DNA from: Thiohalobacter sp.
Lineage (GTDB): Bacteria > Pseudomonadota > Gammaproteobacteria > DSM-19610
Direction of reading: 5' to 3'
Length of the DNA: 64,000 bases
NCBI GenBank assembly: GCA_026984835.1
Contig: JALSRI010000053.1
Span: forward strand, 1 to 64,000
Within the stretch, counting starts at the first letter, position 1, and every line of letters starts with the position of its first letter. The notes below the pieces were generated by a model that was not told the origin of the DNA, made no database searches, and saw only the letters and a program-made list of their open reading frames with translations. A program made the translations under genes and the position numbers. This document shows positions 56,067 through 64,000 of the stretch, in pieces.

Positions 56067-56300
56067 GCGCAGCGAACCCCACCCAAAGGCCTTGTGGAGT
56101 TCCCTTCGCGTCCTTCGCGGTTGACGAAAGCCCCTTCGTGCGCCTTCGTGGTTGAACCGCGCCCTTCCCCGCCAGACCGCCCATCCGGACAAGGGCTGGC
56201 CCGGTGTTGCGAGCGAAGCCATCCCGCCCGTTCGCAGGAATATCCTCCAGGGTATGGCGGCCGGGGTCTATACTCCTGGTGTGGCCGCGAGGAGTGAGGC
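56067..56300. repeat. Relic of the GCGAAG/ACGAAG repeat family
   Basis: In this 234-base gap, 56101-56160 holds CCTTCGCGTCCTTCGCGG, then CCCCTTCGTGCGCCTTCGTG. The last 30 bases (56131-56160) are identical, on the other strand, to 41316-41345. Only one arm is seen, so it looks like a partial element. No other gene or regulatory signal is clear. Confidence 0.75.
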
Positions 56301-62595: not shown

Positions 62596-62622
62596 CCCCA
62601 GACGACCCGACAGGAGGCTATG

Positions 62623-63225
62623 ATGAATACCGACGCAAGCACCACAGACATGGACAAATGGCTCAGCGAAAAACTCGATGAGATGCTGCCCGACAAGCTG
62701 CAGCAGATCGAGGAAGCCAAGACCCCTTCCATGGCCATCATCGCCACCAAGGGCACGCTGGACTGGGCCTATCCGCCCTTCATCCTGGCCTCCACCGCCG
62801 CGGCGCTGGGCTGGGACACCTCCGTGTTCTTCACCTTCTACGGCCTGCTGCTGCTGAAGAAGGAGCTGCCCTGCGAAGTGAGCCCGCTGGGCAACCCGGC
62901 CATGCCCATGAAGATGCCGTTCGGCCCCAAGTGGTTCCAGAACATATCCTGGCCCATGCCCAACCTGATCATGGCCGGCATTCCCGGATTCGAGAAGGTG
63001 GCCACCGGCCTGATGAAGAAGACCTTCAAGAACAAGGGCGTGGCCACCATCGAGGAGCTGCGCAGCCTGTGCCTGGAGGCCGACGTCAAGATGGTCGCCT
63101 GCCAGATGACGGTCGACGTGTTCGGTTTCAGCCGCGACGAGTTCATCCCCGAAGTCAGCGAGTACGTCGGCGCCACGTATTTTCTGCCGGTGGCGCAGAA
63201 ATCCGACGTCTGCCTGTTCATCTGA
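62623..63225 (+). CDS. dsrE2: DsrE2-type DsrE/DsrF/DrsH-like protein
   Basis: 200-residue protein. The core matches the DsrE2 family: MAIIATKGTLDWAYPPFILA, TSVFFTFYGLLLLKKE, LGNPAMPMKMPFGPKW and KMVACQMTVDVFG, where the cysteine is the likely sulfur carrier. Hydrophobic stretches suggest membrane association. DsrE2 passes sulfane sulfur with TusA and rhodanese in sulfur oxidisers; those genes are not next to it. AGGAGG lies 5 bases before ATG at 62623 (ATG at 62620 is an alternative). A strong terminator follows. Confidence 0.9.
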   Translation: MNTDASTTDMDKWLSEKLDEMLPDKLQQIEEAKTPSMAIIATKGTLDWAYPPFILASTAAALGWDTSVFFTFYGLLLLKKELPCEVSPLGNPAMPMKMPFGPKWFQNISWPMPNLIMAGIPGFEKVATGLMKKTFKNKGVATIEELRSLCLEADVKMVACQMTVDVFGFSRDEFIPEVSEYVGATYFLPVAQKSDVCLFI

Positions 63226-63252
63226 CCATCTCCCTCGACACCCACCCTCCTG

Positions 63253-63276
63253 CCGGCGCCCTGCGCCGGTTTTTTT
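63253..63276 (+). terminator. Rho-independent terminator of dsrE2
   Basis: CCGGCGC (63253-63259) pairs with GCGCCGG (63263-63269) around CCT, then seven T (63270-63276). This is a textbook intrinsic terminator 27 bases after the dsrE2 stop. Confidence 0.95.
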
Positions 63277-63513
63277 ATGGCCACACAAAACACGGACAAG
63301 ACCTAGGGGGAAGCCTGATTGACCGCGAAGGACGCGAAGGACGCGAAGGATGCAAAGGGGACAAAGTCTGCAAGCCGGGGACTCAGGAAAACTCCATACT
63401 CCGGACAGCGCCATATTTTCCATCCAAACGGGGATTCCTTCGCGTCCTTCGCGTCCTTCGCGGTGAATCAAACGCCCCTCTTGACAAGTCTTGTCCGTGC
63501 TTTCCGTGGTCAT
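63277..63513. repeat. 237-bp nested inverted-repeat element
   Basis: The outer arms are 63277-63302 and 63488-63513 (22 of 26 matching). The inner arms are 63322-63350 and 63436-63464 (29 of 29 matching) and are made of GACGCGAAG units. The outer arms resemble those of the 41.2 kb element (ATGGCCAC...ACGG). It begins right after the dsrE2 terminator T-run and ends 62 bases before mfd. It fills most of the 350-base gap between the two genes. No coding sequence is seen. Confidence 0.92.
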
Positions 63514-63575
63514 TCCCCACCCTACCCGCACCCGAAACTATCTGAGATAATGCCGCTTTTCCGGCAAGCCCGTTC

Positions 63576-64000
63576 ATGTCCCGTACCGCCATCCAGCCCG
63601 AATCCTCCGCCGTACCCGTCGCCAGCCCGCTCGATCCACCGCTGCCGCGGGCCGGCCGGCGGCTGACCTGGGCGCGCCTGTACGACGACAGCCTGGCGCT
63701 GGCCATCGCCGGCGCCGCGCGCCGCCATGCCGGGCCGCTGCTGGTGGTCACCACCGACAGCCAGGCGGCCGAGCAACTGCAGGAACAGCTGACCTTCTTC
63801 GCGGCCAGCACCGGGCTGCCGGTGTTCTGCTTCCCGGACTGGGAGACCCTGCCCTACGACAGCTTCTCGCCGCACCCGGACATCGTCTCCGAGCGCCTGG
63901 AGGCCCTGCATCGCCTGCCTGCCATGCAGTGCGGCATCGTGCTGGTGCCGGTGGCCACCCTGCTGCAGCGGCTGCCGCCGCGCAGCTACCTGGACGCCCA
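63576..64000 (+). CDS. mfd: Transcription-repair coupling factor Mfd (N-terminal part)
   Basis: The first 141 codons of a gene that runs past the window. The residues RYDDS-like start (TWARLYDDSLALAIAGAARR), PLLVVTTDSQAAEQL, FCFPDWETLPYDSFSPHPD and IVSERLEAL match the UvrB-homology module at the Mfd N-terminus. Mfd releases stalled RNA polymerase and recruits UvrA. ATG at 63576 is the first in frame after the repeat. The DNA translocase part is outside the window. Confidence 0.93.
   Translation, partial: MSRTAIQPESSAVPVASPLDPPLPRAGRRLTWARLYDDSLALAIAGAARRHAGPLLVVTTDSQAAEQLQEQLTFFAASTGLPVFCFPDWETLPYDSFSPHPDIVSERLEALHRLPAMQCGIVLVPVATLLQRLPPRSYLDA

Follow-up and report, generated by a model that had tools for sequence, protein, structure and literature searches.

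The 237-bp nested inverted repeat at positions 63277-63513 of the window, the 64,000-nucleotide stretch of a Thiohalobacter sp. contig that was analysed here, is an insertion, and it consists of two different hairpin families, an A-family hairpin lying inside a C-family hairpin. We consider it probable that this feature is non-autonomous and derives from a hairpin mobile element that, in its coding form, contains a GxxExxY gene, in an arrangement like that of REPs and RAYTs with an unrelated enzyme. GxxExxY genes lie within self-matching inverted arms, and the arm type follows the protein type loosely. The feature itself is an ordinary copy, plus an extra nested hairpin, of an element family that is apparently undescribed. 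The interesting result is the wider pattern, in which GxxExxY and IVP genes are found within tandem-unit hairpins.

Sequence comparison of the arms showed that the nested inverted repeat is real. The outer arms are 85% complementary over 26 nt (22/26), and complementarity of the inner arms (63305-63350 and 63436-63481) reaches 87% over 46 nt, with a perfect 29-bp pair inside them (Table 1). The 22/26 match and the 29-bp pair agree with an earlier note on this DNA. A fourth, degenerate GACGCGAAG-type unit of the left inner arm reaches 63358, and 9-bp units are present in both shells, the outer C and the inner A. The same note had expected the transcript to be able to form a very long hairpin, and the folded strand 63260-63530 indeed gave an MFE of -135.7 kcal/mol vs -84.9 +/- 4.7 in 200 dinucleotide shuffles (z = -10.75), none of which folded as well (0/200). 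It had also treated the structure as one element; the nesting stands, while the two shells belong to separate families, one inside the other.

Table 1. Position, strand and supporting evidence of the hairpin features, their neighbouring genes and the RAYT gene
Feature	Position	Strand	Evidence or remark
dsrE2-like gene, upstream of the element	62620..63225	+	PF13686 DrsE_2, E 1.9e-47; ORF from sequence
Intrinsic terminator of dsrE2, intact	63252..63276	+	stem 63252-63270, T-run 63270-63276; element directly 3'
Left outer arm, C family, degenerate (ATGGCCACACAAAACACGGACAAGAC)	63277..63302	+	22/26 pairing; consensus of C family GCCACGGAAARCACGGAMA
Left inner arm, A family, three 9-bp GACGCGAAG-type units	63322..63350	+	arm pairing and A pattern
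Interior of inner hairpin	63351..63435	.	no Rfam match above gathering
Right inner arm, A family, fully complementary to 63322-63350	63436..63464	-	arm pairing and A pattern
Right outer arm, C family	63488..63513	-	minus-strand reading ATGACCACGGAAAGCACGGACAAGAC
C-family hairpin element opened by A-family hairpin	63280..63510	.	231 bp; C copies normally ~100 bp
Probable mfd -10 element (TGAGATAAT), 3' of the insertion	63546..63551	+	by-eye alignment with GAGAATA of relatives
mfd, gene start, runs past window end	63576..64000	+	PRK10689/TIGR00580
Second C-family element of the window, arms GCCACGGAAAACACGGAAA	41225..41430	.	GC core palindrome and half B-family hairpin inside
Right half of B-around-A composite hairpin, remnant	56103..56153	-	right half only; apparently decayed copy
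Sole RAYT of the genome (NF047646)	L397:100-700 (G000:C233), near contig end		flanked by TGTAGGAGCGG inverted repeats

The element starts directly after the last T of the dsrE2 terminator and ends 62 bases 5' of the mfd ATG at 63576. This placement, between the terminator T-run and mfd, had been given in the earlier note and is borne out by the coordinates, and its gene names dsrE2 and mfd hold (PF13686; PRK10689/TIGR00580). A search of the element against Rfam returned nothing above gathering and hence no known RNA family. Whether it was a mobile element or an attenuator had been left open. An intact terminator precedes the element, which itself lacks a T-tract, and a role as attenuator or terminator therefore finds no support and was rejected; the mobile element is supported because the family is real and its sites are empty in relatives. 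Separately, the genome has a further dsrE2-like gene at G000:C60:16182-16757, which shares 95% identity with the copy in the window.

The empty sites that had been proposed as a check were found. In seven relatives (L102, L103, L106, L107, L111, L113, and L114) the mfd promoter region comes almost immediately after the dsrE2 terminator, with a spacer of approximately 100 bp, and G001 is likewise without the element, having a 95-bp dsrE2-mfd spacer with a different small palindrome. For 25 of the genome's elements with flanks, the syntenic site was located in the approximately 1.5 Mb of G001 that were compared, and none of them was present there (0/25). The copies are thus inserted at many sites, mostly intergenic, that are empty in relatives; these relatives, only about 80-85% identical, are too diverged for the junctions to be placed to the base or a target-site duplication to be established. 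The same dsrE2-mfd spacer carries an independent composite hairpin insertion in L115 (G011), upstream of the terminator, with GCAAAGACGCAAAG arms and a GAATTTATTCGGCC palindrome.

Three hairpin families were recognized in the genome, with the arms ACCGCGAAGGACGCGAAGG (A), ACCACGAAGGCGCACGAAGG (B), and GCCACGGAAAGCACGGAAA (C). From the fetched stretches 39 A, 18 B, and 37 C paired elements were extracted, the copies at C234 and C235 possibly being one locus. Genome-wide, the C pattern matched 156 times (79+77; control 0) and the A pattern 138 times (68+70; controls 0 and 3), so that copies are not rare. Most C elements are 92-115 bp long and have a GC-rich core palindrome. The outer arms of the 63.3 kb feature had been related to those at 41.2 kb in the earlier note, and the two do belong to the same C family. 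Seemingly the same C element, together with its flanks, was seen at two contig ends (L297:1017-1144, corresponding to G000:C234:19316-19443, and L298:98-198, in G000:C235); the two copies differ in the number of CACGGAAA units (128 vs 101 bp), through either unit-number variation or an assembly effect.

Nesting is common among these families. An A hairpin is enclosed in 16/18 B elements, and because the junction sequences, by inspection, are common to these cases, most of the 16 probably stem from one composite that was amplified as a unit. Nesting as pure targeting was rejected, as the shared junctions speak against it and the independent nestings are fewer. These comprise the window features at 63.3 kb and 41.2 kb, C184 (C around B around A), C154, and the unrelated loop palindromes of G003. 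In the latter genome, the common palindromes GTCATTGCGAGCGAAGCGAAGCAATCTC and TGTAGGAGCGGCC were observed inside the loops of CCACGGAA hairpins (L384, L391, and L393), and TGTAGGAGCGG palindromes are found in loops of CCACGGAA hairpins as well. As the palindromes in these loops are unrelated to the hairpins, nesting crosses repeat families. The half hairpin at 56103-56153 of the window is apparently a decayed B-around-A copy.

Within the genome, copy-specific complementarity of the arms was modest for B (z 2.6, p 0.007), while A (z 0.1) and C (z -0.1) did not reach significance, and arm covariation was therefore dropped as a proof of pairing. The extra complementarity of the C-flanking sequence was marginal (z 1.7, p 0.04), so we make no claim of a palindromic target.

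The coding form was identified by a profile search, which found a single PDDEXK_3/GxxExxY gene in the genome (PF13366; TIGR04256, E 5.8e-41). This gene sits between C arms (34 nt at 94%) as a 495-bp C element that splits accB-accC, the two genes being named from sequence and order (the biotin carboxyl carrier motif EAMKM, then the carboxylase start) without a family search. The accB-accC junction is without an element in all of the 11 relatives with a readable accC start (11/11), and accB and accC overlap (TGATG) in G001 and G003. What the 63277-63513 feature has in common with the coding copy are the outer C arms, the inner A arms lying outside this match. Four further GxxExxY genes were found in the taxonomic family (G001 and G003), all in matched arms and each with its own arm type, with two shells in G001; all five GxxExxY genes of the family are arm-flanked (5/5). 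One coding copy of G003 has arms (GCCACGGAATCCACGGAA) that recur in that genome as ORF-less hairpins. Three relatives with many C-type repeats (G015, G018, and G011; 63-92 matches) yielded no PF13366 gene in the profile search, and here either the gene was lost (or missed, the assemblies being incomplete) or another factor acts. A pattern search of Pedobacter polaris for ORF-less copies of the arms found none. Among plasmids, GxxExxY was present in only 8/72,556 records.

The association of gene and arms is general. We took from genome contigs the 80 GxxExxY loci of highest similarity, which are thus no random sample. They covered Proteobacteria, Acidobacteria, Planctomycetes, Bacteroidetes, Chloroflexi, Methanosarcinales, and others, and 78 of them were testable. 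At a score of at least 16, a flanking inverted repeat was present in 57/78 loci, archaea included, and 21/78 were without clear arms; the same score was reached by 3/674 other ORFs and by 0.2% of shifted windows in the same loci. The median score of flank pairing was 20.25, vs 8.5 when upstream and downstream flanks from different loci were paired, indicating that the arms match their own partner. The best autocorrelation lag was 9-10 bp in 46 of the 57 armed loci, and arm similarity rose with protein identity, a weak but significant relation (Mantel rho 0.23, p 0.007). Literature searches with GxxExxY, PF13366, and the repeat letters, limited to open PubMed Central, retrieved nothing relevant, and the association with arms and ORF-less copies was absent there. 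The occurrence of GxxExxY between similar repeats across bacteria and archaea suggests an undescribed class of mobile elements.

In an alignment of 47 GxxExxY proteins, the residues D67, E77, K79, Q91, and Y95 were invariant or nearly so, a pattern consistent with an active PD-(D/E)XK site bearing the QxxxY motif that is established for the RecB/Cas4 group. The AlphaFold model had a pLDDT of 95.6, and its best PDB matches were Cas4 SSO0001, the archaeal Hjc resolvase 2wiw, MGME1, and the lambda/LHK exonucleases (LHK-Exo). On this model, GxxExxY is a predicted small PD-(D/E)XK nuclease of the Cas4/Hjc/lambda-exonuclease group. The substrates of Cas4/Hjc/MGME1/lambda-type nucleases are ends, single strands, and four-way junctions, and since the matched enzymes work on such structures, it is reasonable to infer that GxxExxY may act on an extruded hairpin or cruciform.

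From these observations we infer that GxxExxY moves the element, and in the following manner. The C family would be the ORF-less, MITE-like form of a compact element, of 495 bp in this genome, in which two inverted tandem-unit arms surround GxxExxY. A C-family hairpin with CACGGAAAG-unit arms would have landed just 3' of the dsrE2 terminator, and an A-family hairpin built of GACGCGAAG units in its loop. GxxExxY would recognise the units of the arms, probably once these are extruded as a hairpin or cruciform. By nicking or cutting there, it may set off excision or copying, both of the element that encodes it and, in trans, of the ORF-less copies. Hairpin loops may be favoured or tolerated as landing sites, which would give the nested pattern.

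GxxExxY could, on the other hand, be a passenger instead of the driver. In one such explanation, the stem is an RNA feature (an RNase III site, insulator, or mRNA stabiliser), the gene is an independent passenger linked by transcription or regulation, and the hairpins are spread by template switching or slippage without a dedicated enzyme. We regard this as unlikely. The RNA fold is very stable, and the site directly after a terminator and before a promoter would suit an RNA feature; however, the same families occur at many unrelated sites, all empty in a relative. Slippage would fit the unit-number variation at the C234/C235 contig ends, but a 495-bp coding insertion in the accBC operon is hard to obtain in this way. 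Similarly, the abundance of C-type repeats in genomes without a detected GxxExxY gene is set against a gene-arm association that spans bacteria and archaea, with some arm-protein coevolution.

Less likely still is that classical MITEs or REPs are moved by another enzyme, either the contig-233 RAYT or a DDE transposase that escaped detection, and that GxxExxY was captured between their ends. The genome does have a RAYT, and RAYT/REP systems work on the same principle: their ORFs lie between inverted REPs, and numerous other REPs have no ORF (PMC2817692). However, the RAYT of this genome has a different flanking repeat, TGTAGGAGCGG, with no A, B, or C motif at its ends, and it was rejected as the driver. 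The genome thus seems to house two repeat systems, each with its own enzyme. Furthermore, the C, A, and B arms are tandem short-unit arrays and not one short palindrome, and the capture would need to have recurred in dozens of lineages. Co-option of the inserted hairpin as a transcription insulator or as a new mfd upstream region is very improbable: the element does lie between the dsrE2 terminator and the probable mfd -10, and the -35 region of the relatives would, as we read the alignment, fall where it now sits, but no promoter-like site was found in the element, a sigma-70 scan gave no full promoter, including at the candidate -10 of mfd, and the position is not conserved among copies.

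A parallel to the GxxExxY elements is provided by IVP genes. The 23S_rRNA_IVP gene (PF05635) was found in 56/274 genomes of the class, and 22/30 of the IVP genes lay inside inverted arms, compared with 0/272 controls. The arm unit was 7 bp in 22/22 cases (lag 7 or 14). As a partner of the repeats in the genome studied here, IVP was rejected, as no PF05635 match was obtained there while the same model matches 56 other genomes. We also observed an intervening sequence (IVS) within a 23S rRNA gene (L282:1439-1891), in which 7-bp tandem-unit arms (GAAGACA) surround a broken IVP ORF with in-frame stops. Its place corresponds to roughly position 1163 of the LSU, where the model is matched up to position 1226 on one side and again from position 1183 on the other; by comparison with the E. 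coli sequence we take this to be the helix-45 site. The insertion has the same build as the intergenic IVP elements of other genomes. Helix 45 is the classical IVS site described for Coxiella, where the IVS ORF has likewise been described as decaying (PMC4990558). An undescribed superclass of hairpin elements of bacteria and archaea, mobile and with tandem-unit arms around one small gene, may tentatively be proposed, with a GxxExxY branch (9-10 bp) and an IVP branch (7 bp) that would include the classical IVSs in rRNA helix tips, and with a preference for hairpin loops. Such loop-preferring insertion would account for both the rRNA IVSs and the nesting, and the IVP parallel offers a testable answer to the origin of 23S rRNA intervening sequences.

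The GxxExxY elements resemble several known systems. The 23S rRNA IVSs with an S23p/IVP four-helix-bundle ORF (PMC4990558) are likewise insertions that form hairpins, their inverted arms enclosing a small ORF, at sites where a hairpin loop can accommodate them. They differ in that the partner IVP belongs to a family other than GxxExxY and the units are of 7 rather than 9-10 bp; the 63277-63513 feature, being intergenic between dsrE2 and mfd and outside rRNA, is by location not an IVS. Like bacterial MITEs, which are short, ORF-less, high-copy elements with terminal inverted repeats and a coding relative with matching ends, the feature is short, ORF-less, and multi-copy, with terminal inverted repeats and empty sites, and it shares its ends with the GxxExxY-coding copy. 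In contrast to MITEs, the arms consist of tandem units, nesting is common, and neither a DDE transposase partner nor a target-site duplication is established, GxxExxY not being a known transposase. With REP/REPIN and RAYT (PMC2817692), the elements have in common a one-gene unit in inverted repeats, many ORF-less copies, and a repeat type that follows the protein type. However, RAYTs are HUH/Y1 enzymes and REPs short palindromes, whereas here a PD-(D/E)XK protein is combined with arrays of 9-10-bp units. Finally, the gene in the coding C element is a member of TIGR04256/PF13366 PDDEXK_3, a family catalogued as nuclease-fold without a role. GxxExxY proteins are found in many bacterial and archaeal phyla with no assigned role, and their placement between arms, together with the ORF-less copies, offers a testable one, which would place a nuclease-fold enzyme beside RAYT/Y1 and DDE among the few drivers of small repeats in bacterial genomes.
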